DNA from: Phycisphaerae bacterium
GTDB taxonomy: Bacteria; Planctomycetota; Phycisphaerae; Sedimentisphaerales; Anaerohalosphaeraceae
Reading direction: 5' to 3'
Assembly: GCA_029858345.1 (NCBI GenBank)
Contig: JAOUFG010000007.1
Location: 1-46,642, forward strand
DNA length: 46,642 nt
Shown here: positions 4,193-46,642 of the stretch, in pieces
Numbering within the stretch: position 1 is the first letter of the stretch
Layout: each line of letters begins with the position of its first letter
Made by a program: the position numbers and the translations under genes
Notes under the pieces: generated by a model
What the model was told of the DNA's origin: nothing
The model's input: only the letters and a program-made list of their open reading frames with translations
Database searches by the model: none

Positions 4193-5926
4193 ATGGCAAA
4201 ATCAAAAAGACGCTTAGGTGAAATCCTTTACAAGAAGGGATATGTCGGCAAAGAAAACCTGATTGAAGCGATCAAAAAGGGCAAGAAAACCCATAAGCGT
4301 CTCGGGGAGGTGCTTGTTGAGGATGGATTGGCTACAGAAGATCAGGTTTACAAGGCGTTGGCCAAGCAGTTTGGTTTTGAATTTGTCGATTTGAATAATG
4401 CTCAGATTCCCGAAAATGCGACCAAACTGGTCCCCGAAGACATCATCAAAAAACACAAAGTCATCCCCTTGGGGCAGGATAACGGTGAATTAAAAATCAT
4501 TATCCCGGACCCGATGGATCTGGACACGATTGATCTCCTTCGATTCCGCCTTAATATGGATCTGCGATGTTGCCTGGCAAGCCCGACAAAAATCGACACG
4601 TATATTGAAGGGTCGAGTGCCGTACAGGAAAGTACGGATGAATATCGCAGCAGTATCGACCAAACAGCTGAAGAATTAAGGGCCATGGGGCACGCGATTG
4701 AAGCCGAAGTGCGGCGTGCCCAGACGACAGACGCCGTTGACGACGGCCCGATTGTTCGCCTGGCCAACCTGATCATCGATGAAGCCGTCAGAATGCGTGC
4801 CAGTGATATTCATGTGGAACCCATGGCGGACCGTGTCCGGATCCGGTACCGTGTGGACGGCGTCTGTGTGGAACGGGATAACATTCCCAAAAACATGCAG
4901 GCCCCCTTGCTGGCCCGTTTAAAAATTTTATCGGGAATGGACATCGGGGAACGCCGGCTGCCTCAGGACGGTCGAATTAAGCGTGAGATTGATAACCAGG
5001 ATATCGACTTTCGTGTCTCGGCTCTTCCCGGCTATCACGGCGAAAGCACGGTACTGCGTATTTTGCGTCCGGATTCTGTGAACATCGGTATTCAGGCGAT
5101 TGGCTTTGACTCGGATGATTACGCGCGCTTTACGAAAATCATCCGGCGGCCGAACGGCATTTTCCTGGTAACCGGACCGACGGGTTCCGGTAAAACAACC
5201 ACGCTGTATTCGGCGCTGCAGGAACTGAACCGGCCGGACAAGAAGATCATTACGGCCGAAGACCCGGTGGAATATAATATTGCCGGCATTAATCAGTGCC
5301 AGGTCAGAACGGATATTGGACTGACGTTTGAATCGATTCTTCGGTCCATGCTGCGTCAGGCGCCGAATATCATCCTGATCGGTGAAATCCGTGACGGTAT
5401 CGTGGCCGACATTGCGATTCAGGCGGCATTAACAGGCCACCTGGTGTTCAGTACGCTGCACACCAATGATGCCCCCAGTGCCATCACGCGTTTGATTGAC
5501 ATGGGGGTCAAGCCGTTTTTGGTGGCCAGTTCGATTCAGGCCATTATGGCGCAGCGACTGGTTCGAACGATTTGTAAGGAATGTCGGACTGTAGACCCGT
5601 CGCCGGATCCGCATTTTCTGCGTCTGCTAAATATCAAGCCGGATGACATGAAATTGCATAAGATTTATAAAGGGGCCGGGTGCAATCATTGTCAGGGGAC
5701 CGGGTTTAAGGGCCGAATCGCGATTTTTGAAATGCTTGAAATGAATAATCAACTGCGGGATCTTGCGTTTGCACGCGCCCCGGCGGGAGAATTGCGAAAA
5801 GCGGCATTGGCGACCGGAATGACCTCCTTGCTCTATGACGGAAAAAAGAAGGTGTTCAAGGGGATTACCACCCCCGCAGAAGTGTCGCGTGTGGCACAGG
5901 CGGAAGGATTGGTTTTGGATGCATAG
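4193..5926 (+). CDS. GspE/PilB-family secretion ATPase (first copy)
   Basis: A 577-residue hexameric ATPase that powers pseudopilus/pilus assembly at the cytoplasmic face of the inner membrane. Residues ~1-150 form an N1/N2 (MshEN-like) region. The core has Walker A GPTGSGKTTT (~327-336), a Walker B/Asp-box region at IILIGEIRD (~390), the His box STLHTNDAPSA, and a four-cysteine zinc site CKEC (~461) and CNHC (~497). The Asp box is unusual: the normal RQDPD reads RQAPN, and RDLETAQ reads RDGIVAD, whereas the second copy at 7350-9110 keeps the consensus. It opens the operon, 33 bp ahead of the PilT-like gene. It may be a specialised or weakly active paralogue. Confidence 0.93.
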   Translation: MAKSKRRLGEILYKKGYVGKENLIEAIKKGKKTHKRLGEVLVEDGLATEDQVYKALAKQFGFEFVDLNNAQIPENATKLVPEDIIKKHKVIPLGQDNGELKIIIPDPMDLDTIDLLRFRLNMDLRCCLASPTKIDTYIEGSSAVQESTDEYRSSIDQTAEELRAMGHAIEAEVRRAQTTDAVDDGPIVRLANLIIDEAVRMRASDIHVEPMADRVRIRYRVDGVCVERDNIPKNMQAPLLARLKILSGMDIGERRLPQDGRIKREIDNQDIDFRVSALPGYHGESTVLRILRPDSVNIGIQAIGFDSDDYARFTKIIRRPNGIFLVTGPTGSGKTTTLYSALQELNRPDKKIITAEDPVEYNIAGINQCQVRTDIGLTFESILRSMLRQAPNIILIGEIRDGIVADIAIQAALTGHLVFSTLHTNDAPSAITRLIDMGVKPFLVASSIQAIMAQRLVRTICKECRTVDPSPDPHFLRLLNIKPDDMKLHKIYKGAGCNHCQGTGFKGRIAIFEMLEMNNQLRDLAFARAPAGELRKAALATGMTSLLYDGKKKVFKGITTPAEVSRVAQAEGLVLDA

Positions 5927-9163: not shown

Positions 9164-10420
9164 ATGCCGGTATTCCAATATCAAGCATTAGACGCAAAAG
9201 GGAATGAATCAGCAGGCCAGATCGAGGCCCTCAGCAGCAAAGAAGCGATCAGTAAGATTCGCAATAAAGGGCTGTTTCCGACAAAGGTCCGCGCCCAAAA
9301 TGCCGCCCGGAAGGTGAAAGTCGCCAAAGACGCGGCCGGACCCAAGCGGCGGGGGGCCGGCGGCAGGGTCAAGATCAAGACCGTGACCGAGTTTGCCCGG
9401 CAGATGTCCACGCTGCAGGATGCGGGGTTGGCGATTCTGCGTTCGCTGCGGATTCTCGAAGAGCAGGCGAAAAAGGGCACCTTTAAGCGGGTGGTCGGGT
9501 ATGTGGCCGATGACATCGAGGGCGGCGCCACCTTATCCGAGGCGATGGGCAAATATCCCAAGTGTTTTAACCGGCTGTTTGTGAACATGGTGGCCGCCGG
9601 CGAGGTGGGCGGTGTGTTGGATGTCATCTTAAACCGTGTGGCGGACTTTTTGGAAAAGGCCGAGCGGCTCAAAGCCAAGATCAAAGGCGCGATGGTGTAT
9701 CCGGCGGTGGTGATGAGCGCCGCGTTCCTGATCGTGATGGGCCTGATGATTTTCATCGTGCCGACGTTTTCCGAGGTGCTCAGCGACATGAGTGACGGAA
9801 AAGCGGGCTTGCCCGCACTGACGCAGATACTGCTCAATATCAGCAACTGGCTGACGGACCGTAAGGGTCTGAACGCCGCGATCGTGATCGCCTGCCCGTT
9901 TGTGCTGTTTTCGCTGCTCAAACTGGTGCGTCAGTTCCAGAAGGGCCGGTATGTGATGGACTGGCTCAAGTTGCGTACCCCGGTCATTAAAAAGCTGGTC
10001 TATAAAACCGCGGTGGCCCGCTGGACACGAACGCTGGCTACGCTGATCAGTGCCGGCGTTCCGATTCTGGAGGCGTTGAACATTACCCGGGAAACGGCGG
10101 ACAACGAGATCTATGGCTCGATGCTGAACAAGGTGCAAAATGCGATCCGGCAGGGCAATACCTTCGCCAATCCGCTGCGTCAGTCCAAGACCGTGGACTC
10201 GATTGTGGTCAACATGGTCGATGTGGGCGAGGAAACCGGCGACCTGGACAAGATGCTCCAGAAAATCGCCGACAACTTTGATGAAGAGGCCGATGTGCTG
10301 GTCGGCTCGCTGATGAGCCTGCTGGAACCGATTATGATTATCGTCCTCGGCGGCCTGGTCGGGACCATCGTACTGGCGATGTTTTTGCCGATGGTCAAAA
10401 TGATCCAGGTCTTAATGTAA
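9164..10420 (+). CDS. gspF: GspF/PilC-family inner-membrane platform protein
   Basis: A 418-residue polytopic platform protein that couples the assembly ATPase to growing pseudopilin. It has two tandem T2SF domains. The first contains EFARQMSTLQDAGLAILRSLRILEEQ, and the second the matching ARWTRTLATLISAGVPILEALNITRETA. Hydrophobic segments lie at ~178-200, ~225-250 and the C-terminal LEPIMIIVLGGLVGTIVLAMFLPM, the usual three-helix pattern. A GGGAGG ribosome-binding site precedes the ATG. Length and order (E-F-pseudopilins) match classical gsp/pil operons. A Lys/Arg/Gly-rich linker (~45-70) separates the N-terminal strand region from the first helical domain. Confidence 0.95.
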   Translation: MPVFQYQALDAKGNESAGQIEALSSKEAISKIRNKGLFPTKVRAQNAARKVKVAKDAAGPKRRGAGGRVKIKTVTEFARQMSTLQDAGLAILRSLRILEEQAKKGTFKRVVGYVADDIEGGATLSEAMGKYPKCFNRLFVNMVAAGEVGGVLDVILNRVADFLEKAERLKAKIKGAMVYPAVVMSAAFLIVMGLMIFIVPTFSEVLSDMSDGKAGLPALTQILLNISNWLTDRKGLNAAIVIACPFVLFSLLKLVRQFQKGRYVMDWLKLRTPVIKKLVYKTAVARWTRTLATLISAGVPILEALNITRETADNEIYGSMLNKVQNAIRQGNTFANPLRQSKTVDSIVVNMVDVGEETGDLDKMLQKIADNFDEEADVLVGSLMSLLEPIMIIVLGGLVGTIVLAMFLPMVKMIQVLM

Positions 10421-10430
10421 AAGTACATAG

Positions 10431-10555
10431 AACCACGAATGAACACCAATAGACACGAATATAGAATGTAATTAGTGAAAATTAGTGGTTCGGTTAAAAA
10501 AACAATCTGTGAAATCTGTGGATAGAAAAAGAAAAATTCGTGTGTATTCGTGGTT
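10431..10555. repeat. Nested palindromic intergenic repeat (ACCACGAA/TTCGTGGT family)
   Basis: Perfect 10-bp outer arms AACCACGAAT (10431-10440) and ATTCGTGGTT (10546-10555), with inner arms AGACACGAAT and ATTCGTGTGT. Inside lies a fragment of the second family, AATCTGTGAAATCTGTGGAT (10503-10522). It sits between gspF and the first pseudopilin gene. Confidence 0.75.
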
Positions 10556-10598
10556 TAAGAAAATAAAAGCCATAATTGATTTTAGAAAGGACAAAACG

Positions 10599-11564
10599 AT
10601 GGAAAGAAAAAAAGGGTTTACAATTGTAGAGCTGCTGACGGTCATGGGCGTCATCGCCGTCCTGATCGGCCTGATGGTGCCGGCACTGGCGCTGGTCAAG
10701 GACTATTCCAAACGCATCCAGCAAAAAGCCCAGTTCCACGGCATCGATATGGGCTTGCAGATGTTTAAGACCGAGTTTGGTTCTTACCCCGATTCTTCTG
10801 ACAACTTTATAACGGGAAAAGAGGCCAGTATTTACTGTGGTTCCAATAAACTCGCTGAGGCCATGGTTGGGCTGGATTTGATTGGGTTCCATCCCAATGC
10901 GGATTTTCGTTCTGATGGGCAAAATACTATTACGGATAACTTTGGCGTTCAGGTACCCAACCATGATGTTTATGATACTACCGGTTCTCTTGCATCATGG
11001 CAAACCGGAGCACAGAATATCGATGCTCGTAAAGGTCCTTTTGTAGAAACGGAGCATGCGAATGCTTTCCGAATGGATGAGGTATATGCGAATATAGGAC
11101 CTACCAACTTTAACCAGAACTTTGCTCCGCCTGGTGCTGCTACCGCAATGTACCCTCTGGTGCTGTGTGATGTTTATGCTCAAAAACGCAGCGGAACTGG
11201 CGGCAAAAAGACAGGCACACCAATTCTGTACTACCGCGCTCATGAGAACTTTAAGTTTCAGGATTCCGCAAAGGACAACAATGGCAGCGGTTTCGTGGAT
11301 GATGATGACATTTATAGTTATCTCGACAACCAAGAATTATTAGCACTTGGGAGGCCTGACAATAATTCCACATTTGCTGTTGTAACCGCAGCGGTAACAG
11401 GTGTTCCAGCCCAGGAATTTGACAACATGATCCGTAATGAAAATGTCACAACTGTGCGACGGCCTTATCGTTCGGATTCGTATATCCTGATCTCGGCCGG
11501 TAAAGATGGCGACTTCGGTACGGCGGATGATGTCTTCAACTTTGACAAAGAAGTAACCGAATAA
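10599..11564 (+). CDS. GspG-like pseudopilin / prepilin 1
   Basis: A 321-residue prepilin-like protein with a short basic leader MERKKG followed by FTIVELLTVMGVIAVLIG: a class III signal cleaved after Gly with Glu at +5, then a hydrophobic N-terminal helix. The C-terminus has SAGKDGDFGTADDVFNFD, resembling the calcium-binding loop of GspG major pseudopilins. A longer frame reaches 10485, but it would be encoded by the intergenic repeat; ATG 10599 has a proper RBS (AGAAAGG, 8-nt spacing) and gives the correct leader length. The protein is paralogous to those at 12355 and 13458 (YPDSS, LAEAM.G.D..GFHP and the C-terminal motif are shared). It is about twice the size of a typical GspG (~140 aa). 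The large middle region has no recognised domain. Confidence 0.88.
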   Translation: MERKKGFTIVELLTVMGVIAVLIGLMVPALALVKDYSKRIQQKAQFHGIDMGLQMFKTEFGSYPDSSDNFITGKEASIYCGSNKLAEAMVGLDLIGFHPNADFRSDGQNTITDNFGVQVPNHDVYDTTGSLASWQTGAQNIDARKGPFVETEHANAFRMDEVYANIGPTNFNQNFAPPGAATAMYPLVLCDVYAQKRSGTGGKKTGTPILYYRAHENFKFQDSAKDNNGSGFVDDDDIYSYLDNQELLALGRPDNNSTFAVVTAAVTGVPAQEFDNMIRNENVTTVRRPYRSDSYILISAGKDGDFGTADDVFNFDKEVTE

Positions 11565-11586
11565 AGTCCGGCGTTGGTTTTTTGTA

Positions 11587-11644
11587 AAATCGGTGTAAAT
11601 CCGTGTAATCTGTGGTTGAAAATTGAATCGGTGTTGATCTGTGG
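11587..11644. repeat. Intergenic repeat, right arms only (ATCTGTGG family)
   Basis: Two consecutive degenerate right arms: AATCGGTGTAAATCCGTG...ATCTGTGG (11587-11615) and AATCGGTGTTGATCTGTGG (11626-11644). The GTG in the second arm (11641-11643) is the only sensible start codon of the next pseudopilin. Confidence 0.65.
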
Positions 11645-12255
11645 CTAAGCATCAAAAACAATCCGGTTTTTCGCTGATGGAAGTGCTGGTGTCGCTGGCG
11701 GTCATTTTGATTCTGATCGGCGCCCTGGTCGGTACGGGCAGCTATGTCCGGACCCGGGCCAATGTGGACCTGACGCGAAGCATGCTGGAAGTACTGTCCT
11801 CGGCGCTGGAGCAGTACTACAATGACCAAACGCCCAATGCGTTTCCGTTTGAAGCGGATTTGACTTTTGATGAAGCTGCTTTCGAGGCAATTTTTTTGCC
11901 GATTATCGCTGATGTACTGCCTGACGGTTCACTTCTGGAAAAAGATGGCAGTACGCCTCCTCTAGATGTTTCAAGTGCTTCCAGTGCGGCGTTGTTTTAC
12001 TTTCTGGACAGGAATCCGGCCAGCCGGGCCATTGCTTCGGCGGTGTCGAATACGCTGGTGACCAACAAGGACGCTGACGGAAACGCCATTACGATTACCA
12101 TCGGGACCAATCCTGCGATTGATCTGCCGCGGTATATCGACCCGTGGAAAACGAGCATCCGGTATGTGTACCTGGACGGGACGGCGTTTCCAAGCTTAAC
12201 CAGCGCCGGACCGGACAAGGTGTTCGATACGCCGGACGACATTACAAGTAAATAA
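11641..12255 (+). CDS. Pseudopilin / prepilin 2 (GspG-like, short)
   Basis: A 204-residue prepilin-like protein. The leader VAKHQKQSG is followed by FSLMEVLVSLAVILILIG, a class III cleavage site with Glu+5. The C-terminus LTSAGPDKVFDTPDD is a variant of the GspG calcium-loop motif seen in its neighbours. The GTG start lies inside the intergenic repeat; no purine-rich Shine-Dalgarno exists, only GGTG ten bases upstream. The N-terminal segment is nearly the same as that of the gene at 15229, pointing to a shared ancestor or gene conversion. Its role would be as a major or minor pseudopilin of the fibre assembled by GspE/GspF; which one cannot be decided. Confidence 0.85.
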   Translation: MAKHQKQSGFSLMEVLVSLAVILILIGALVGTGSYVRTRANVDLTRSMLEVLSSALEQYYNDQTPNAFPFEADLTFDEAAFEAIFLPIIADVLPDGSLLEKDGSTPPLDVSSASSAALFYFLDRNPASRAIASAVSNTLVTNKDADGNAITITIGTNPAIDLPRYIDPWKTSIRYVYLDGTAFPSLTSAGPDKVFDTPDDITSK

Positions 12256-12260
12256 CATTG

Positions 12261-12336
12261 AACCACGAAGGACACGAAGAGCACGAAGATAAAAAATATA
12301 TAAATAATACTTCGTGTCCTCTGTGAACTTCGTGGT
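12261..12336. repeat. Palindromic intergenic repeat (AACCACGAAG...CTTCGTGGT)
   Basis: Left part AACCACGAAGGACACGAAGA (from 12261) and right part ACTTCGTGGT (ending 12336) with internal CACGAAG/CTTCGTG pairs form a long imperfect hairpin in the space between two pseudopilin genes. It is the same family as 10431-10555. Confidence 0.75.
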
Positions 12337-12354
12337 GAAAACAAGGAACCGAAA

Positions 12355-13332
12355 ATGCAGAATAGGCCAAAAAACAGAAGAGCGTTCACGTTAATTGAAT
12401 TGCTGACGGTGATTGCGATTATCGCCGCTCTCGTGGGGATTCTCAGCGTCGCCCAGCGCAAGGTCAAGATCGTTTCGCTGAACCTGCGGCAGAAGGCCGC
12501 CTTCCACGCCGGCGAGATCTCGCTGGAACTGTACAGCAAGGACTTCGGCGGCTACCCGGACTCATCGCTGGTTTCGTCTGACGGTGCCGGCGCCGGTCCT
12601 TATGTGACCGGTTCCCAGCGCGTCGCCGAGGCACTCTTCGGTCGGGACGACCGCGGTTTTCATCCGAAATCCAAGTGGCACCCTTCGCTGGATGCTGCTG
12701 CTGCGGCACCTCATCCCGGAGCGAATTTATATACCGATGCGACGGCGAAAGACCGAAAAACACCTTACTTTGAACGAAAACGAGCCGGTTTCTACACGAT
12801 CAATGACCTGTGGGGGAGTAGCGGTTTTGGGTCGTCGCAGATCTATACATCTGCCGGGGCCACCACCGGAACCGAAATGTCGCCAGTGTTTACGGATGTG
12901 TTTACGCAGAACAGAGTGACGATTGGCACAGAAAATGTCAAGGTCGGCATGCCCATCCTGTACTTCAAGGCCGATCCCACCAAGCGTTTTCGTGTGAACA
13001 GTTCTAATGTTGAGGTTGATCCTGCCGTTGCATTAGAATATAGACAATGGGTCTATAACTTTGATGACAACCTGCCGATTCTTCAGCTTCCGTGGCTGCG
13101 GGATCCGACGGTGGAGACCGATGGAATGAATTTCCAGGATGGAATACGCGGGCACTATAAGGACTCGCAGGATACGGCGAAGGCTCATGCCCAGTTCTTT
13201 TACGAAACGATTACCCAGCGGGCCGACGGCAATTTCTTTTCGCCGCACAACAAGAGCACGTTTCTGCTGATCTCCGCCGGGTATGACGGCATTTACGGCA
13301 CGAAAGACGATCTGACGAATTTTGACGATTAA
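12355..13332 (+). CDS. GspG-like pseudopilin / prepilin 3
   Basis: A 325-residue prepilin-like protein with leader MQNRPKNRRA and helix FTLIELLTVIAIIAALVG. The cleavage position follows Ala instead of Gly, which prepilin peptidases tolerate less often. Body motifs GGYPDSS, VAEALFGRDDRGFHPKSKWH, GMPILYFKAD and the C-terminal ISAGYDGIYGTKDDLTNFD make it a clear paralogue of genes 1 and 4 of the series. The start has a normal RBS (AAGGAA) outside the repeat. It is probably exported across the inner membrane and added to the same fibre. Confidence 0.87.
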   Translation: MQNRPKNRRAFTLIELLTVIAIIAALVGILSVAQRKVKIVSLNLRQKAAFHAGEISLELYSKDFGGYPDSSLVSSDGAGAGPYVTGSQRVAEALFGRDDRGFHPKSKWHPSLDAAAAAPHPGANLYTDATAKDRKTPYFERKRAGFYTINDLWGSSGFGSSQIYTSAGATTGTEMSPVFTDVFTQNRVTIGTENVKVGMPILYFKADPTKRFRVNSSNVEVDPAVALEYRQWVYNFDDNLPILQLPWLRDPTVETDGMNFQDGIRGHYKDSQDTAKAHAQFFYETITQRADGNFFSPHNKSTFLLISAGYDGIYGTKDDLTNFDD

Positions 13333-13341
13333 CAGATAAAG

Positions 13342-13425
13342 TCCACAGATTTCACAGATTATGATGATTAAAGTTTTATAAATATAAATAAAAGAAATCT
13401 GTGTAAATCGGTGTAATCTGTGGAT
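13342..13425. repeat. Palindromic intergenic repeat, both arms (CCACAGAT...ATCTGTGG)
   Basis: Left arm GTCCACAGATTTCACAGATT and right arm AAATCTGTGTAAATCGGTG followed by TAATCTGTGGAT, separated by an AT-rich middle. This is the complete form of the family seen also at 16099-16184 and 17359-17444. Confidence 0.75.
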
Positions 13426-13457
13426 AGATCTAAAAACTTTTTCAGGAGGCGTTCGAA

Positions 13458-14375
13458 ATGAAACGCAAGACAAAAATACGAGTCGGATTTACGCTGGTGG
13501 AACTGCTGACGACGCTGGCGGTCATCGGCATTTTGCTGGGACTGCTGATCCCGGCCCTGAACCAGGTGAGCAAGACCGCCACCAAGGTCAAACAAAAGGC
13601 CCAGTTCCACGCCATCGGAACCGCACTGGAAACCTTCCGCAACGACTACGGCGACTACCCACCAAGTGCATGGGATGCGGATTTTGATGGTATGCCGGAT
13701 TATGGCTATTATTATCCTTCACAGCGGCTGGCCGAGGCGATCATTGGACGTGATGGGCTTGGCTTTCATCCAAGTTCAAAATTCCTGGGAAATGGAACAG
13801 ACGGAACGGTGACGGTGTCAGGTAATCCTCTATACTATCCTGCCATCGCTGGTTTTACAGATCCTGCAAAAGAGGCAAATCTGGCTGCTCGCAAAGGTCC
13901 TTATCTGGAACTGGAAAGTGCCAATGCGGTTAAGCCCGATTCACTGTATCTGCCTGCGGTAATTGGTAGTTATGCCCTTACAGATGGTTATGTTTTGGCG
14001 GATATGTACAAAGTTACAAAAAATGCAAAAACGGGCAAGCAGGTGGGAATGCCTATTCTCTATTATAAGGCCAACAAGTTAAAGGTTGGGAATGATCCGG
14101 CCAGTTTTGCGACAAATACCTACAATGTCGCCGACAATTCTGACGGAACCGGTTTTGTGGCGGCTCCGGCTCCCTTTAACGGTGCGACGCATCCGTTGAG
14201 TGCCGAAATCAGTAGCGGCAACGCTCCTTCGTTTTACAATGCGATCGCCAATCCGAATTTTCCGGGCCCGCCCGCGCGGCCGTATCGGGCGGAGTCGTTT
14301 TTGCTGCACAGCGCCGGCGAGGACGGGCTGTACGGGACGATGGATGATATGTTTAATTTCGACCAGGATAATTAA
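13458..14375 (+). CDS. GspG-like pseudopilin / prepilin 4
   Basis: A 305-residue prepilin-like protein with leader MKRKTKIRVG and helix FTLVELLTTLAVIGILLG. It shares GDYPPSAW, LAEAIIGRDGLGFHPSSKF, GMPILYYKA and the C-terminal HSAGEDGLYGTMDDMFNFD with its paralogues. A strong AGGAGG Shine-Dalgarno (13444-13449) precedes ATG 13458. The Asp-rich C-terminal loop is expected to bind calcium by analogy with GspG. Segments between the shared blocks differ strongly between the paralogues. Confidence 0.88.
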   Translation: MKRKTKIRVGFTLVELLTTLAVIGILLGLLIPALNQVSKTATKVKQKAQFHAIGTALETFRNDYGDYPPSAWDADFDGMPDYGYYYPSQRLAEAIIGRDGLGFHPSSKFLGNGTDGTVTVSGNPLYYPAIAGFTDPAKEANLAARKGPYLELESANAVKPDSLYLPAVIGSYALTDGYVLADMYKVTKNAKTGKQVGMPILYYKANKLKVGNDPASFATNTYNVADNSDGTGFVAAPAPFNGATHPLSAEISSGNAPSFYNAIANPNFPGPPARPYRAESFLLHSAGEDGLYGTMDDMFNFDQDN

Positions 14376-14384
14376 ATAGTTCTT

Positions 14385-14539
14385 AGTTTTTAGTTCGTAG
14401 TTCATAGAAATAGTTTGTGTGAATTGGTGTTTATTGGTGGCTGAATAAGAAATGGATTTTTGTGTTTTTCGTGTGGTTCGTGGTTTGTAGTTTTTAGTTC
14501 GTAGAGATAGTTTGTGTGAATTGGTGTTAATCTGTGGCT
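14385..14539. repeat. Tandem-duplicated intergenic repeat with AGTTCGTAG elements
   Basis: AGTTTTTAGTTCGTAG occurs at 14385-14400 and again at 14489-14504. Each copy is followed by ATAGTTTGTGTGAATTGGTG. The first copy ends in GGTGGCTGAATAAG, where the would-be GTG start runs into a stop after three codons; the second ends in TCTGTGGCT and provides the start of the gene at 14534. A TTCGTGTGGTTCGTGGTTT fragment of the other family lies between them. Confidence 0.65.
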
Positions 14540-15178
14540 AAATATAAAAAACAATCCGGTATCTCGCTGACAGAGATCCTTGTGACAATCTCGATCATGG
14601 CGATCCTGATGGCGATTGCGGTCCCGGCGGCCAAATCGCTCATGGCCTCGTTCGAGTCGGGCACCGGCGCCCGGCAGCTCATCAACGCGGCCCTGTCCAA
14701 CGCCCGCGCCATCGCCGTCCGCGAACAAACCTACGCCGGCGTCCGCTTTCAGCAGGATGCAACCGGCAATACGTATATTGTTTTCATCGTACATGATCCG
14801 GCGGTAACAGGGTATGCCAATGGGTTTCTCGCGGTAACCGGCCGCAAGCCCATGAAACTGCCCGAAGATGTTTCTGTCAGAGCAGGTGTTGTTGACCTTA
14901 CAAATAATGTTACAGGCACCCAGGAGTTTTTTTCGGTCGTTTTTTCCGGGGCGGGCAAATTAACAGTGCATCCGAACCGTTGCTCCCATAGTTCGGCTAA
15001 CGATACGATTTTTAATGCACCCGGCAACAATGTGATGTTTCAAGAAGACACCGTAGACTGGTCGAGTGTACAGAGTTTTGATTTGATTAAAAAGGACAAA
15101 AGCGGTGTGGTGCTGGAGTCAACCACCGAATATATCAGCCCGTACACGGGCGAGTTAGTGATCCAGTATCGTGATTAA
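14534..15178 (+). CDS. GspH/FimT-like minor pseudopilin
   Basis: A 214-residue prepilin-like protein. The leader VAKYKKQSG is followed by ISLTEILVTISIMAILMAIAVPA (Glu+5 present). The following SLMASFESGTGARQLINAALSNARAIAVREQ matches the GspH/FimT pattern (helix with a run of Ala/Arg, then beta-rich body). GspH-type proteins sit at the tip complex of the pseudopilus. The start is a GTG at 14534 in the intergenic repeat, without a purine-rich RBS. It has no SAGxDG motif, unlike the G-like group. Confidence 0.85.
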   Translation: MAKYKKQSGISLTEILVTISIMAILMAIAVPAAKSLMASFESGTGARQLINAALSNARAIAVREQTYAGVRFQQDATGNTYIVFIVHDPAVTGYANGFLAVTGRKPMKLPEDVSVRAGVVDLTNNVTGTQEFFSVVFSGAGKLTVHPNRCSHSSANDTIFNAPGNNVMFQEDTVDWSSVQSFDLIKKDKSGVVLESTTEYISPYTGELVIQYRD

Positions 15179-15202
15179 AAGAATGAGAAAAATATTTAAA
15201 AA

Positions 15203-15232
15203 GAAATCTGTGTAAATCGGTGTAATCTGTGG
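15203..15232. repeat. Intergenic repeat, right arm only
   Basis: GAAATCTGTGTAAATCGGTG then TAATCTGTGG. The final GTG (15229-15231) is the start codon of the next gene. There is no left arm nearby. Confidence 0.7.
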
Positions 15233-16092
15233 ACAAAGATAGAAAACAATCTGGTTTTTCGCTGATGGAGGTGCTGATCGCCACGGGCATCATGGCCATC
15301 GGGCTGGTGATGGTCGCGACGATTTTCCCCGTCGGCGTCAAGCTGACCACGCTGACGACCGAACGCACCGTCGGCGCCGTCGTCGCCGATGAGGCCTTCG
15401 CCAAGATCCAGCTCTACGGCCTGCGCGATTTTCAATACTGGCCGGTAGGCGATCCGAATGAAGCATGTACAGATTTCCAGTATGCTATTAAACCCACTAT
15501 TGATTTTAATGTTGATGGCAGTATAAATATTTCCGATGTTGCACTTTCTGTTTGGGATGAGTTTTTGTATCCCTCAGCAACGATGCCTGCCGGACAGGAT
15601 AATAATTATCACTGGTCGGCCCTGTGCCGCCGGATGGGCGCCAAAGACGTGCAGGTGACGGTGTTTGTTAATCGAAAAATTGGTTCGGGTGCTGGATTTT
15701 ATGGTTACGACAGTGCCTTGGTTCCTACGATCCCTCCCGTTCCTTATAATGATTGGCCGATGCCGGTTCGCGTGGAGGTGAATCGCGAAGATTCAAAAAT
15801 ATTGACAATTGATACGGCAGGCGTCTGGTCAAATACGGCGTTAGAATTTTTTGATGACGGCTATATGATTGTGGATGATTTGACCGGGAATAAATACCGC
15901 GTACTTGAAGTGGACCCTTTGTCCGGCACTCTTAAATTGCAGGGCGATTGGGTTGGCGATTTAACTGCTGTTCCACCTTTAACCTATCCTGTACCAACTT
16001 TGATTTGGGTGGTGCCGCCGGCGGTCGGCAGCGACCGGTATCCGTGTGTGGGCGTGTACCAGAAAGTGATACGCTTTGATGACATAAAGTAA
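15229..16092 (+). CDS. GspI/PilV-like minor pseudopilin
   Basis: A 287-residue prepilin-like protein: leader VDKDRKQSG, then FSLMEVLIATGIMAIGLVMVATIFPVG, typical of GspI/PilV proteins (S-L-x-E-V with a Gly-rich helix). Later AVVADEAFAKIQLYGL resembles the segment after the helix in this group. The GTG start is in the repeat. The rest is beta-rich and unannotated. DNA composition alternates visibly within the gene: GC-rich codons in the helix, around 15615-15660 and at the 3' end, AT-rich between. Confidence 0.83.
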   Translation: MDKDRKQSGFSLMEVLIATGIMAIGLVMVATIFPVGVKLTTLTTERTVGAVVADEAFAKIQLYGLRDFQYWPVGDPNEACTDFQYAIKPTIDFNVDGSINISDVALSVWDEFLYPSATMPAGQDNNYHWSALCRRMGAKDVQVTVFVNRKIGSGAGFYGYDSALVPTIPPVPYNDWPMPVRVEVNREDSKILTIDTAGVWSNTALEFFDDGYMIVDDLTGNKYRVLEVDPLSGTLKLQGDWVGDLTAVPPLTYPVPTLIWVVPPAVGSDRYPCVGVYQKVIRFDDIK

Positions 16093-16098
16093 ATAAAG

Positions 16099-16184
16099 TC
16101 CACAGATTTCACAGATTTCTATGATTAAGAGAATATTTATAAAAACTTAAAAAAGAAATCTGTGTTAATCAGTGTAATCTGTGG
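16099..16184. repeat. Palindromic intergenic repeat, both arms
   Basis: TCCACAGATTTCACAGATTT at the left and GAAATCTGTGTTAATCAGTG then TAATCTGTGG at the right. A further GAATCCGTGAAATCCGTGG (16203-16221) lies inside the first codons of the next gene. Confidence 0.75.
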
Positions 16185-16190
16185 ATAAAA

Positions 16191-17348
16191 ATGAATTTGA
16201 GAGAATCCGTGAAATCCGTGGTTAAGAAAAAAGCGTTTACGATTGTCGAGCTCTTGGTAGCGATGACGCTGCTGGTGATCCTGCTGGGATTGAGCGGGAT
16301 GGTGTTTAATACCACCGTTCAGGCCCACCGCGCCGCCGGAGCGAGCATCGACGTGTCGCGCAACCTGCGGGCGATCACCGAACAGCTCAGCAACGACCTC
16401 CGCGGCCTGCGAAAGGACGCGCCGTTGTTTATCAAGTTTTACTCGATCGGCAATGCGAGGCATGATTTGGTTCATTTCTTCGCCGACGGTGATTTTCAGT
16501 CGACCAAGCAGTACGCCGGACAAACCATTTACGGCAATGTCGCCCGCATCTATTACGGCCATGCCAATTCTGTGGACATTTTCAATGATCCCGGCTTGAC
16601 ACCGGATTATTATTCATATCAAACGCTGGCCCGCAAAACACATATCCTGACCGCCGATGCCGGTATTAAAGCGGTTTATGGTCAAATTCCGCTGATTAGT
16701 AGCGGTGGTCTGATTGATTACACGCAATTCGCGACAGATTTTCTGTTTTCCAACAATTTCCCAAATGAAAACCAACTGGAATTCGACACGATTACGCTGA
16801 CAGAATGGATTAATGCGTTAAATTTTCTGAACGCAGGCAATCCCGATAACGCAGATGCTTTTGTTGATAACTGCATGGATGACGGCACCCGGCCGTTTAT
16901 CGACTTGTCAAAGGTAGAAACGCTCCATCTGCTGATGGCCCAGGGCGTGATCGAATTTCAGGTCCAGTGGGCCTATACGACGAATGACTTAGTGACCGTG
17001 GCTGGCTTGCCGGTTCCGTGGCTTTTTGCCGGCGTTCGCTGGTGGCCGAGTGACGACCCGGACGGCGATCCCTCAACAGTAGGCTCCGATTTTGATGTGA
17101 TGGCGGGGCTGGATATATTTGGTGTCTATCTTCGGATGCCCAATGGTTCAAGCTTTGCTCAATGGCATGATGTTGTATCCGCGAATCCGGCAAAACGCTG
17201 CCGTGCCAATGATGGTAGCGGGGGAGCTTTTTACTTCAAAGACAATTTTTACCCCGCCGCGTTGAAGTTTACGTTTACGCTGAAAGACAGCAACGGCATC
17301 TTCGCCGACGGCAAGACCTTTACGCATATTGTGTACCTTGACAATTAA
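16191..17348 (+). CDS. GspJ-like minor pseudopilin
   Basis: A 385-residue prepilin-like protein with helix AFTIVELLVAMTLLVILLGLSG (Glu+5), followed by TTVQAHRAAGASIDVSRNLRAITEQLSNDLRGL, the extended helix typical of GspJ/PilW. The ATG at 16191 lacks an RBS, and the first nine codons derive from the intergenic repeat. A GTG at 16218 (VVKKK-AFTIVELL) would give a normal short leader and stand in the same sequence context as the GTG starts of three sister genes. The remainder holds no known domain. GspJ forms the tip complex with GspH/I/K. Confidence 0.83.
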   Translation: MNLRESVKSVVKKKAFTIVELLVAMTLLVILLGLSGMVFNTTVQAHRAAGASIDVSRNLRAITEQLSNDLRGLRKDAPLFIKFYSIGNARHDLVHFFADGDFQSTKQYAGQTIYGNVARIYYGHANSVDIFNDPGLTPDYYSYQTLARKTHILTADAGIKAVYGQIPLISSGGLIDYTQFATDFLFSNNFPNENQLEFDTITLTEWINALNFLNAGNPDNADAFVDNCMDDGTRPFIDLSKVETLHLLMAQGVIEFQVQWAYTTNDLVTVAGLPVPWLFAGVRWWPSDDPDGDPSTVGSDFDVMAGLDIFGVYLRMPNGSSFAQWHDVVSANPAKRCRANDGSGGAFYFKDNFYPAALKFTFTLKDSNGIFADGKTFTHIVYLDN

Positions 17349-17358
17349 ACTTAGGGAG

Positions 17359-17444
17359 TCCACAGATTGCACCGATTTTTATGATTAAAGATAATAAAGA
17401 ACTTTAAAAAAGAAATCTGTGTGAATCTGTGAAATCTGTGGATA
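17359..17444. repeat. Palindromic intergenic repeat, both arms
   Basis: GTCCACAGATTGCACCGATT at the left and AATCTGTGTGAATCTGTG then AAATCTGTGGAT at the right. It fills the space before the GspK-like gene. Confidence 0.72.
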
Positions 17445-17450
17445 GTAAAA

Positions 17451-20400
17451 ATGAAAACAAAAAACAGACAATTCGATAAACGCAGCGGTTCAGCTTTGAT
17501 CCTGGTGGTGGTGGTCACGGTGCTGCTGGCGGTGGTGGGCGTGATGTTTTTGATGGTTTCCCGCGCCTCGGAACTGGAAACCGGCGCCGTCATCCAGAGC
17601 GCCGACCTCGACAACGCCGTCGATTCCGTCGTCGCCCAAATCAACGAAGTCCTCGTCGAAGACCTGTTCGGGAACGATAATCAAATCGTGGACAATGACC
17701 CCGCCGCTTCGGATGAACCCTATGACGTTCCGAATGCCAATGACCCTTGGCTGGCCTCACTGGAGCCGTATGCGGGCTTTGATACTCTTGGCAATCCCGT
17801 CTATTTCTGGCAGCGTATTACCGATTTGTATGGTAACAATTTTGGAAATGTTCCGTTGGGTTACTATGATCCCCAGAGCCAGCAAAGCGTTTTTTCAGAA
17901 ATCGATCCTGCTGAATGGAACGGCTCCTATCCTGAGTTAGCTGTAGATGCTATTGACACACTGGTCAAAGTCATTAAACCTCATGACCGTACATATCCCG
18001 TGAATCCTACGGCACCAGCAGGGTGGGCCAAAGACTTTGCCGGCGCCCGCGCCGACGCCGATGGTGACGGTGTCGCCGACAGCCGCTGGGTGCCGGTGCC
18101 GGGACTGACCACCAGTCGCGGCGAGCCGATCTTCGCCGCCCTCCGCATCATCGACAACTGTGCCATGCTCAATCTGAATACGGCGCATTGTTTCTATCAG
18201 GAACCTTATACTGTTAACCCCGCATCTCCCTTCGTCAAGCAATGGTTTGAAAACGAGACTGCTGCATCGCCATATCATGACAATCAATCCACCGGTTCCG
18301 GTCGATATCTGACGGAGATCAATTACCTGCCGTTTTTAAGAGGAGCAGACCTTGGTGCTTTCTGGGGTGGCAGCGGCGATGGTTGGTATAACCTGATGCA
18401 GGCAAAGGGATTCTGGAATCCGCTTCCGGCCCCGGGTTTGCCCCTGTCTCCGCAGAATTGCCAGAGTATTGTCATGAACATTGAAAAGCCTGTGTCCGGT
18501 TTTCAGTTCTTTGATATCGGCGATGAACTGGAACTTCGCAATCGTTATCTGGTGACTTCTAAAACAGAAGCACGTTTCGAGCAAGATGCAGCTGCAAATT
18601 ATACACTCGATTCCGGGAATGGTGCCGGTGGGGCGTATGCGGCGTTGGAAGTGCCTCGTGATACTACGAATGACTTTGGAAGCTGGACACGTCGAATTGA
18701 TTCATTTAATTTTGATAGGTGGGATAAGACCGGGCTTGTTATTGATGCAACGCCCGATCCTTATGAATACGACCGGCGCCATGTCTGTACATTTTACAGT
18801 TATGACCGAGATCTTCGAGGTAATGTGACTTATCCCGAGATTGAAAAGCAGTTAGCTCTCTTGGGGCTTCCTCAGGAACAAGCCGACCAGATCCGCTGGC
18901 TGTTTTGCAGGCTCGGAGCCGCCGTTTCACTGCGTCTGCCGCTGCGATCTGAATTTCAAACGGATTCTGACTATGCGTATGGATGCCGGGCTCATTTGGT
19001 CACCATACTGTATACGATAAGGGCGTATTATGTGAGTCTTGGCTTTGAAATTCGTGAAGCTGCTTTAAAGTCGGCTCAGTTCGCCGCGAATCTGATCGAT
19101 TATTCAGATTTTGCCGGCAGCATCAGCATCTTTTATACGGGAGATCCAGGTTGGGCACAATACCCAATTCAGTACCCCGAAGATTGTACGTTCCTGAATG
19201 CCCAAATCATCAACCAGATGGTTATTGAAGTGGCCAGGAGAGAATTAGGTCGAGACAAACGTTTGATGGAATATTTTTATGATAGAACATTCGACTTCGG
19301 CCTTGAACCGGATGACATCGTTTTCGGCTATGAAAAACAACCGTTTATTTCAGAAGTCTATTGTCAATGGGACAACACTATAGGCGATGTGCATACTGCA
19401 ATACAGGGGTTTGCCATCGAGTTGTTAAATCCATATTCCAACGATGTCTATATTGATGGATGGAAACTTCAGGTCGGCGATGCAGTGGATCACGATATTG
19501 GTACGTCAACGGCGCCTACATGGTTTGTTCCGGGATATGACATGGGGGCACTGAGTCCAGGCAGATTTGTGTTCGAAAGTAAAGACTCTGTGCTTATAGA
19601 ACCCGGCGGTGTAATCCCATACCCTGTGGTTTCTGAATTAGAGTCGCTTGACACTGAGTGGTTTGCCAATAGATCGCTTGAGATCAAACTTTTACGGCCT
19701 GCTCCGCAATGGGTTCAAGACAATCGCTCAATTGCCTACTTGGTCGTTGATAGTGTTTCTACTGAAATACTGAGAGATCCTAATGAGGGTATTTTCGGCC
19801 TCAACGGTCGGAATTCTATCAAGCGTGATGATAATGATTGGAAATTCGTCAACCTGGATTATGAAACGCAGCGAGAAAACGATGGCAATTTTTCTCTGAC
19901 ACTTGGCCAGGATAATGATGTTAACCTGTCAGGCGAGGGCTTCCAGCTTGCGGTTGCGGATGACGGCCTGCCGCTGACACGGTGGCATGAATTGGAAACG
20001 CTGGCATTGTATGGTAACGGGCCGGAACTGGACACGACCGCACCGAGTCCGAGTCCTGCTGCTGCGGCACCCGCCGCGGCGATGGCGATTCTTGATCCCA
20101 ATGCCGTCCCAACGGTAACATGGCAATTAGCAAATCTGGAGTCCGATGAAGTTCCGTATTTTGATTTGGCAGGCGATTCAAGCGACTTGCTGAACTATGT
20201 AACCACCAGCGATCAGACCGAAAGCGGAACCGTGCCCGGACGGATCAATATCAATACCGCGCCGGTGCATGTGATCGCCGCGGCCATCCCGCCGACACTG
20301 GCCGACCCGAACGCGGCCGATCCGGACGAGGCGGTGGCCTTCTCCGCATTGCAGCTGGCACAGGAAATTGTCAATTACCGTGAATCTCCAAGTGGACCAT

Positions 20401-20714: not shown

Positions 20715-20819
20715 TTTTGAGTTCGTAGTTATTGGTTTGTGACGATCCGAACAGGCGTTCGGTTGTAATGATTTTGTGTAAAAACGGCAGAAAAGGCGAC
20801 CATAAGGATCTTTTTTTGT

Positions 20820-20848
20820 TTGACTTGATGTGGCCGGTCGCTTAGAAT
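20820..20848 (+). promoter_or_regulatory. Sigma70-type promoter of the C10 protease gene
   Basis: TTGACT (20820-20825), 17-bp spacer, TAGAAT (20843-20848), 59 bp before the ATG at 20908. A GAGGGTGA ribosome-binding site follows. Confidence 0.7.
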
Positions 20849-20907
20849 GTGACGAGGTCTTTTGTGTGAGGAATAATACGATTTTATTTTAGTGAGAGGG
20901 TGATTCA

Positions 20908-46287: not shown

Positions 46288-46300
46288 CTAATCCACACTG

Positions 46301-46529
46301 GACCCCGAAGGGGTCATCACAATAATAGCCGCGGGTGAAGGCCGAAGGCCGGAACCCGTGGTATCAGATACCCAAAATATTCACAACCCCGCAGGGGTTG
46401 AACAAACCATCCCAACTCAAATTACAGTTCAAATGTTCGACCCCTACAGGGTCGTCAATAGCACCGTATTGCTAACCACGGGTTCCGTCCGTCTTCGCCT
46501 TCGGCTACGCCGCGACTGCACCCGCGGCT
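46301..46529. repeat. Cluster of palindromes upstream of grpE
   Basis: Three compact hairpins: GACCCCGAAGGGGTC (46301-46315), AACCCCGCAGGGGTT (46385-46399) and CGACCCCTACAGGGTCG (46438-46454). A larger inverted repeat brackets the last two: AGCCGCGGGTG...GGAACCCGTGGT (46327-46362) against ACCACGGGTTCC...CACCCGCGGCT (46475-46529). This looks like an intergenic repeat element with possible RNA structure. No gene is visible in it. Confidence 0.7.
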
Positions 46530-46569
46530 GATATGGAACGACCTTTGTCAAGTTATCATTTTGTTATTT

Positions 46570-46642
46570 TTACATTTTCTTGAAAACACTTCCAGGTGCA
46601 GGCGGCTTCGACGATGAATCAGTCTGATATTCGTGGATTATC
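46570..46642 (-). CDS. Possible 3' end of a gene cut by the window edge
   Basis: On the minus strand a frame is open from the right edge to a TAA at 46570-46572 and reads ...HEYQTDSSSKPPAPGSVFKKM. The Ser/Pro/Lys-rich end resembles a protein tail, but 23 codons are too few for identification. If real it would lie upstream of grpE in the same direction, with the palindrome cluster between them. Confidence 0.3.
   Translation of the reverse strand, partial: IIHEYQTDSSSKPPAPGSVFKKM

Follow-up and report, generated by a model that had tools for sequence, protein, structure and literature searches.

Word-array palindromes between prepilin genes of a Phycisphaerae bacterium as probable gene-less derivatives of GxxExxY nuclease elements

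The stretch analysed here, in the following called the window, comprises 46,642 nt of a Phycisphaerae bacterium (contig JAOUFG010000007.1, labelled C59, of a 3.01-Mb genome in 198 contigs) and contains a series of prepilin genes whose gaps are occupied by palindromes and single arms built from short repeated words. We consider it probable that these palindromes and solo arms are gene-less derivatives, resembling miniature inverted-repeat transposable elements (MITEs), of small mobile elements which encode a GxxExxY nuclease when full. In such a full element, the left arm consists of CCAC and two to four copies of a 7-8-nt word repeated every 9-10 nt. Behind it come a GxxExxY gene of some 125 codons, coding for a PD-(D/E)XK nuclease with QxxxY motif, and a right arm in which the words of the left arm return as reverse complement, with a terminal GTGG. 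The protein lineages tend to differ in their words, among them CACAGATT, CACGAAG, CACGAAT, CATGAAG, CGCGGATT, CACAGAG and others. An element that lost its gene would become a short-loop palindrome and, after further loss, a solo arm, a direction from full element to palindrome that we infer. Insertion would occur in tight co-directional or convergent gaps, often directly after a stop codon, and sometimes in the middle of another palindrome with formation of nested composites.

Word arrays in the gaps of a prepilin series

The prepilin series is located downstream of a GspF-like gene (9164-10420; its GspF identity is our own reading) and includes eight gaps between 10421 and 17450, up to a 1087-codon gene at 17451. 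Each arm in these gaps is a run of two, three or four 7-8-nt words that match [A]T[CT]NGTG, with GTG returning every 9 or 10 nt and a terminal GTGG. Left arms show the reverse-complement sequence, and left arm, AT-rich stretch and right arm together form a palindrome. Arms are present in all eight gaps. Outside the series, 19 further non-coding stretches were considered in the window (17 gaps of at least 20 nt plus 20715-20907 and 46288-46642), and none of them has an arm, in agreement with a preliminary description in which the repeats were confined to the prepilin series within the window. That description had further assigned them to two palindromic families in seven gaps. Nearly every gap is indeed occupied, and even all eight, yet at least three word families can be distinguished (CACAGATT, CACGAAG and CACGAAT, the latter with CACTAATT/CACCAAT variants), and a clean short-loop palindrome is found in four gaps only (12263-12335, 13343-13423, 16100-16184 and 17360-17441). 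Composite elements, as also described previously, do exist, the first gap holding a CACAGATT arm within a CACGAAT palindrome. Three gaps contain same-strand arms only (11565-11640, 14376-14533 and 15179-15228), and 7-nt repeats of a different type, TTAGTTCGTAG, occur at 14379-14410 and 14485-14507. According to the proposed scheme, three families would have settled in one prepilin operon, in which three open frames (11641, 14534 and 15229) now start at the last GTG of an arm.

The gene order of the operon itself (ATPase-like and GspF-like genes, p1-p8) is conserved wherever a relative's contig extends far enough. In a genome of the same genus, G006, it is present without an arm in any gap, and in G008 and G021 the same gaps contain arms or repeats different from those of the window.

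GxxExxY genes enclosed by matching arms

Gene-bearing relatives with the same ends as the window's elements exist, in the form of GxxExxY genes located between arms of the same words. The GxxExxY family (TIGR04256/PF13366) comprises PD-(D/E)XK nucleases, and all four proteins scanned against TIGR04256 scored 121.8-153.4 bits at a curated NCBIfam cut-off of 35 bits. While the window itself contains no GxxExxY gene, four are found elsewhere in the same genome, on contigs C10, C51, C158 and C178, and these four genes have four different words. The gene at C10:4870-5244 has a CACAGATT arm on either side, at 4832 and 5268, and the one at C51:1889-2260 lies among CACGAAG arms; hence, for two of the window's three word families, a cognate gene exists within this genome. 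On C178, the word is CGCGGATT with a left arm only, and on C158 it is CGCGAAT without any scored inverted pair. GxxExxY genes with CACGAAT words occur in relatives, namely in G007 and, within the gat gap treated below, in G014, G024 and G038.

A set of 70 GxxExxY loci was compared, to which the 95 PF13366 matches of the own genome and its relatives contributed 40 and the best PF13366 matches in genomes with a CACGAAG palindrome another 30; two loci with short flanks were dropped from the flank test. The inverted-flank score of the remaining 68 genes reached a median of 17 compared to 7.5 in 886 genes of the own genome (Mann-Whitney p 8e-25) and 8 in mismatched flank pairs, and 50 of the 68 exceeded the 95th percentile of the 886 ordinary genes. 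The two features also coincide at the level of genomes, as PF13366 was detected in 35/39 genomes with a CACGAAG palindrome versus 70/149 of a phylum sample (Fisher p 6e-7), which is a rough baseline given that the 39 genomes stem from many phyla; within the phylum sample, the figures are 3/4 palindrome genomes versus 67/145, too few to tell. The catalytic residues D, E, K and Q are kept in 70, 68, 70 and 70 of the 70 aligned proteins, with D replacing E in the other two, and correspond to a PD-(D/E)XK nuclease with QxxxY motif. Owing to this near-invariance, the GxxExxY genes look selected as nucleases.

The word tracks the lineage of the GxxExxY protein and not the host. Over 2381 pairs, protein and word similarity are correlated with a Spearman coefficient of 0.362, the largest value of 1000 permutations being 0.152. 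Between the 40 loci of relatives and 25 loci from genomes not titled Planctomycetota, the coefficient is 0.297, a value reached in none of 2000 permutations. Word labels were assigned automatically (that of L331 visibly derives from a neighbouring element and was left unchanged) and mapped on a protein tree that has few columns and many open forks. All labels together need 36 changes on this tree (shuffled 47.4, 0/200 as low), and the 29 labelled rows of relatives alone need 13 (shuffled 20.4, 0/200 as low). In contrast, the host genome as label is unclustered, with 33 changes versus 32.4 after shuffling. The clustering is mainly carried by CACGAAG (19 rows, 7 changes, shuffled 17.1) and CATGAAG (7 rows, 2 changes, shuffled 6.8). 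CACGAAG is also common to a 12-protein clade (support 80) in which genome names of Planctomycetota, Deltaproteobacteria/Desulfobacterota and Schekmanbacteria are combined. The nuclease may recognise the word of its own arms and thereby drive movement.

Empty and filled states of one orthologous site can be compared in the gap between gatA and gatB (gene names according to our reading of the proteins), which was readable in 24 of 30 loci, with words read by eye. In ten of these, G006 included, the gap is empty with a length of 5-23 nt, and in G015 it comprises 71 nt without words. Gene-less arms are present in six gaps (G000, G001, G004, G018, G028 and, in degenerate form, G008) and a single word in that of G033. 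Another six gaps contain a GxxExxY gene, with CACAGAG words in G005, G016 and G021 and CACGAAT words in G014, G024 and G038. More than one family has, therefore, entered this gap, and the arms accompany their gene. Behind gatA of G019 comes a GxxExxY gene with CACAGAG words; a gatB was not found on that locus. The own genome carries a full GxxExxY element with CACAGATT arms in the neighbouring gatC-gatA gap. Between the right arm and the gatB match, AAGGAA is found in G000, G005, G016 and G021, which places the element upstream of a likely ribosome-binding site. More generally, GxxExxY genes are repeatedly met in the gatCAB operon of several relatives (own genome C10:4349-8301, locus L082; loci L356-L385). 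A PF05635 gene lies beside gatA in G031, and in L415, from a Spartobacteria-titled genome, a GxxExxY gene is followed by an apparent GatB start.

Spread, nesting and competing explanations

Counted genome-wide, the families turned out to be common and the window a dense spot: the strict patterns gave 42 and 60 matches, with 4 and 3 of them in the window, and a reversed-pattern control gave none. The window's 7 of 102 strict matches compare with 1.58 expected by length (Poisson p 0.001). Spacing is equally specific, since GTG..T[CT]NGTGG was found 101 and 55 times at GTG-GTG distances of 9 and 10, 29 times at distance 8 and 7-16 times at distances 6, 7 and 11-17 (941,646 bases of own-genome stretches). 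Using a home-made gene caller (1039 genes) and an arm regular expression (154 arms, 19 of them in the window; off-spacing control 7) on 1,149,043 bases of the own genome, in stretches partly picked because matches lay in them, 108 arm clusters were obtained, of which 67 lie in co-directional, 11 in convergent and 8 in divergent gaps, 15 inside a called gene and 7 at edges. With 8 of 86 placed clusters, divergent gaps are short of elements relative to their gap bases (chi-square p 0.0004). A uniform spread over the intergenic regions, named in the preliminary description as the outcome contrary to its view, was not observed: the elements are clustered and favour co-directional and convergent over divergent gaps. 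Contigs without a strict match had 1 arm in 203,515 bases, a value biased low by the choice of contigs and unused as baseline.

The suspected enrichment at prepilin loci did not hold beyond the window. An arm within 200 nt upstream was found at all seven prepilin places in the window and at 4/32 elsewhere in the genome, compared to 64/1003 called genes outside the window in stretches partly picked for matches (Fisher p 0.15 for 4/32 versus 64/1003), and the G006 operon is armless. A prepilin-specific role was accordingly rejected. A role as promoter or divergent operator was rejected on account of the few elements in divergent gaps, and one as intrinsic terminators since the commonest letter at positions 3-6 behind the right arm is A and not T, no terminator scan having been made.

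Among 40 related genomes, own included, the number of TTCGTG matches varies from 0 to 60, and G006, G010, G019, G026 and G031 have none. Far beyond these relatives, the palindrome CCACGAAG..CACGAAG(N25-55)CTTCGTG..CTTCGTGG occurs in at least 116 stretches of genome contigs and, among the matches listed, in records of about ten phyla, including Acidobacteria, Deltaproteobacteria/Desulfobacterota, Nitrospinota, Nitrospirae, Planctomycetota and lineages of Chloroflexi as well as Verrucomicrobia, Gammaproteobacteria, Leptospiraceae, Bacillota and Schekmanbacteria. Most of the matches listed are metagenome bins; isolates include Methylobacter marinus A45 and Thioalkalivibrio denitrificans ALJD. Eleven viral contigs carry the palindrome as well, and two scans of viral contigs gave no GxxExxY relative. 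The context was studied for 102 distinct elements (loci L141-L256) with a crude longest-frame caller (open frames of at least 70 codons): 42 lie inside an open frame, and the 60 placed elements are divided into 33 co-directional, 19 convergent and 8 divergent cases. No family recurred in more than three of the neighbour genes compared (96 of 129 neighbours, those below 450 aa).

Several genomes contain dispersed, near-identical copies. G129 has five gene-less copies on five contigs, some of which have part of the outer flank in common, so that the copied unit is longer than the palindrome. In G187, eleven gene-less CACGAAG palindromes with differing loops were found (L451-L461), most of them centred, by eye, in larger inverted arrays of AACAGC-like words. 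In M. marinus A45 (L219/G073), a 162-nt unit centred on a CACGAAG palindrome is repeated at many sites; the four copies read (L465, L472, L473 and L477) are identical over 162 nt, are located in the loop of another palindrome and have 4-bp TCCT or AGGA repeats at both sides in all four cases. At the orthologous site, the same-genus genomes G224 and G225 are without the element; in G226, a different CACGAAG palindrome is enclosed there by another inverted repeat. Mobility of the elements is strongly suggested. A preference for the centres of palindromes or hairpins as targets may exist, and the composite at 10433-10553 of the window fits such a nesting habit.

Several observations weigh against a derivation from GxxExxY elements. 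The one candidate target-site duplication seen, the 4-bp TCCT/AGGA repeats in Methylobacter, flanks the outer unit of a composite with nested palindromes and neither the word arrays themselves nor the arms of the window. Of the GxxExxY genes, 18/68 remain below the flank threshold. Palindrome and PF13366 counts over the 40 relatives are only modestly correlated (Spearman 0.37, p 0.02), and palindromes occur without detected PF13366 in G015 (12 TTCGTG matches) and G129 (5 palindromes, genome 84% complete). No GxxExxY frame was found in loci L141-L267 around gene-less palindromes. Regarding the words, CACAGAG is unclustered on the protein tree (5 rows, 5 changes), CGCGGAT and CACAGAT are weakly clustered (34 and 30 of 500 shuffles as low), and 12/70 rows have no label. 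A sequence search of the PDB gave no convincing relative, the only match up to E 1 having E 0.75. Moreover, detection was pattern-based in incomplete draft genomes, and the cross-phylum set was selected for one word. Finally, genes of a second family, PF05635, are bracketed in a similar manner, so that the open frames of both families might be cargo of a third factor. PF05635 genes are present in 31/40 relatives (none in G006, G010, G015, G022 and five others), and 17/25 loci (L416-L440) exceed the 95th percentile of ordinary genes, with 1/5 doing so in L441-L445. A few of the passing loci are plain inverted repeats and not word arrays; array words in L416-L440 are, for example, TCAGAAG, GGCAGTA, CCAGGGT and CAAGAACA. 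By eye, the 7-nt repeats of the window at 14379-14410 and 14485-14507 resemble such arrays. Weakly scoring PF05635 proteins adjoin GspF-like genes at G004:C49:49837-50133, G008:C19:61644-61946 and G019:C9:43732-44025.

If the arms were mobilised by a third factor or by host replication and repair, the GxxExxY and PF05635 genes would be mere passengers in palindrome loops. Two unrelated small proteins sharing a similar architecture, genomes that carry palindromes without PF13366 and, in several genomes, palindromes nested centrally in other palindromes all argue for this possibility. Passengers, however, should let words and genes reassort, and the word in fact follows the GxxExxY lineage across hosts, which renders the explanation rather unlikely in our view.

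Quite improbable is the idea, put forward in the preliminary description, that the palindromes are RNA hairpins selected to stabilise or separate segments of a polycistronic mRNA. The four short-loop palindromes do fold far better than shuffled sequences (z -4.9 to -7.7; composite z -2.8), and the 2-nt spacers of opposite arms are complementary above chance, in 38/120 outer and 11/28 inner cases versus 17.2 and 3.9 after shuffling. Nevertheless, 82/120 outer spacers are not complementary, and the operon is armless in G006, its gaps in G008 and G021 containing other repeats. Two of the three solo-arm gaps were tested and do not fold (z -1.5 and +1.5); mRNA stabilisation or segmentation can, therefore, not account for the whole set. 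The further suggestion of that description, homology for gene duplication and reshuffling, received no support from the observations; no test aimed at it was made.

A constant 7-nt word with a variable 2-nt spacer, close to one helical turn, would also be expected for binding sites of a nucleoid or regulatory protein common to many phyla. In the third units, which were not fixed by the search pattern, word positions are conserved with 0.59-1.37 bits and spacer positions are not, at 0.38 and 0.17 bits. Such a protein is nevertheless hard to reconcile with the patchy occurrence within one genus (0 to 60 TTCGTG matches) and with several words in one genome beside different GxxExxY genes, and we regard it as very improbable. 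Chance or low-complexity sequence can practically be discounted in view of the reversed-pattern controls (0 versus 42 and 60) and the spacing control.

Several known systems resemble the elements in part. PF05635 is the S23/IVP protein, a four-helix bundle, of 23S rRNA intervening sequences, which likewise consist of a small open frame between inverted arms; here, PF05635 also occurs in intergenic elements with other words. The window elements differ from these sequences by their location outside rRNA, their protein family and their words. Each repetitive extragenic palindromic (REP) unit forms one hairpin with GTAG foot, and the associated RAYTs are HUH (Y1) transposases. REP/REPIN-RAYT systems share with the present elements short dispersed intergenic palindromes, often after stop codons, a cognate small protein and gene-less copies. 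They differ in that the protein is here a PD-(D/E)XK nuclease, the gene stands between the arms, and the arms are non-palindromic word arrays; instead of a hairpin with GTAG foot, the arms end in GTGG, and the two solo-arm gaps examined do not fold. The short tandemly repeated repetitive (STRR) sequences of cyanobacteria consist of degenerate 7-nt words in intergenic arrays, as do the present elements, and to our knowledge are not known as inverted arms around a gene. Correia/NEMIS elements are bacterial MITEs, and such MITEs are known as clade-specific. RU elements are likewise bacterial MITEs (PMC2229807, PMC2759123). Both are small, gene-less and intergenic with inverted repeats and many copies; the elements considered here differ in having the same words in about ten phyla, among the matches listed, and a GxxExxY-bearing form. 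As for the traits of MITEs, the palindromes are short and gene-less, with inverted terminal repeats and dispersed copies, while the solo arms of the window lack a second repeat.

Taken further, GxxExxY nucleases and inverted word arrays could constitute a large, so far undescribed class of mobile elements, to which we would give an even chance. Each lineage would read its own 7-8-nt word, jump into the apex of intergenic hairpins and leave gene-less palindromes, which would account for a large part of the repeats between genes in many environmental bacteria, with PF05635 proteins as a parallel second class using other words. GxxExxY proteins are common (70/149 genomes of the phylum sample) and are named without an assigned function. 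PMC8934634 and PMC12085832 mention GxxExxY, and PMC9756366 names PF13366; in the open literature, to which the search was confined at the exclusion of subscription papers and preprints, no publication was recognised as describing these elements. If the explanation is true, GxxExxY proteins would act as nucleases that mobilise elements, each lineage having a DNA word of its own. The origin of one class of intergenic palindromes, widespread in many phyla, would then be explained, and a natural series of protein-word pairs would be at hand for reading DNA recognition by a small nuclease. Additionally, such repeats can supply start codons and mimic regulatory hairpins.

Individual arms and further features of the window

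All left arms named below are on the reverse strand, and all right arms and 7-nt repeats on the forward strand. In the first gap, the outer left arm of the composite palindrome, with CACGAAT-type words (10433-10460), pairs with a CACGAAT-type right arm at 10535-10553. A right-type arm with ATTAGTG words (10470-10488) and the nested solo right arm with CACAGATT-type words (10504-10521) lie in between. The second gap contains a solo right arm of CACAGATT type with variant words (11588-11615) and a further solo right arm (11626-11644). The open frame has its earliest possible start codon in the last GTG of this arm (11641), upstream of the prepilin signal (11656). The following two gaps harbour clean palindromes, one formed by left and right arms with CACGAAG words (12263-12288 and 12310-12335, RNA fold z -7.7) and one by arms with CACAGATT words (13343-13360 and 13396-13423, z -5.8).

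The fifth gap starts with the 7-nt repeats of the other type (TTAGTTCGTAGTTCATAG, 14379-14410), which by eye resemble words at some PF05635 genes, followed by solo right arms with variant words (TTGGTG, 14414-14440) and TTCGTG words (14458-14483), the second copy of the 7-nt repeats (14485-14507) and another solo right arm (14511-14537). The last GTG of the latter (14534) is again the first possible start codon of an open frame upstream of its prepilin signal (14546), and the same applies to the solo right arm of CACAGATT type at 15205-15232 (GTG at 15229, signal at 15241). The remaining two palindromes are both formed by CACAGATT words, with left arms at 16100-16117 and 17360-17377 and right arms at 16157-16184 (z -6.7) and 17414-17441 (z -4.9), respectively. 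An extra right arm with ATCCGTG words at 16204-16221 overlaps the start region of the next gene.

At gathering score, no Rfam family matched in the window. In two genomes of the same genus, a second GspF-like copy, 70-77% identical to that of the window, directly follows the first one in the prepilin operon (L300, G003:C148; L303, G004:C77). Directly after the stop of the 1087-codon gene, TTGAGTTCGTAGTTATTGG at 20715-20740 resembles the 7-nt words of PF05635-type arrays. Downstream of the last called gene, two nested inverted repeats of a type different from the word arrays are located at 46322-46534, with CCGCGGGTG and AACCCGTGGT arms 175 and 112 nt apart.

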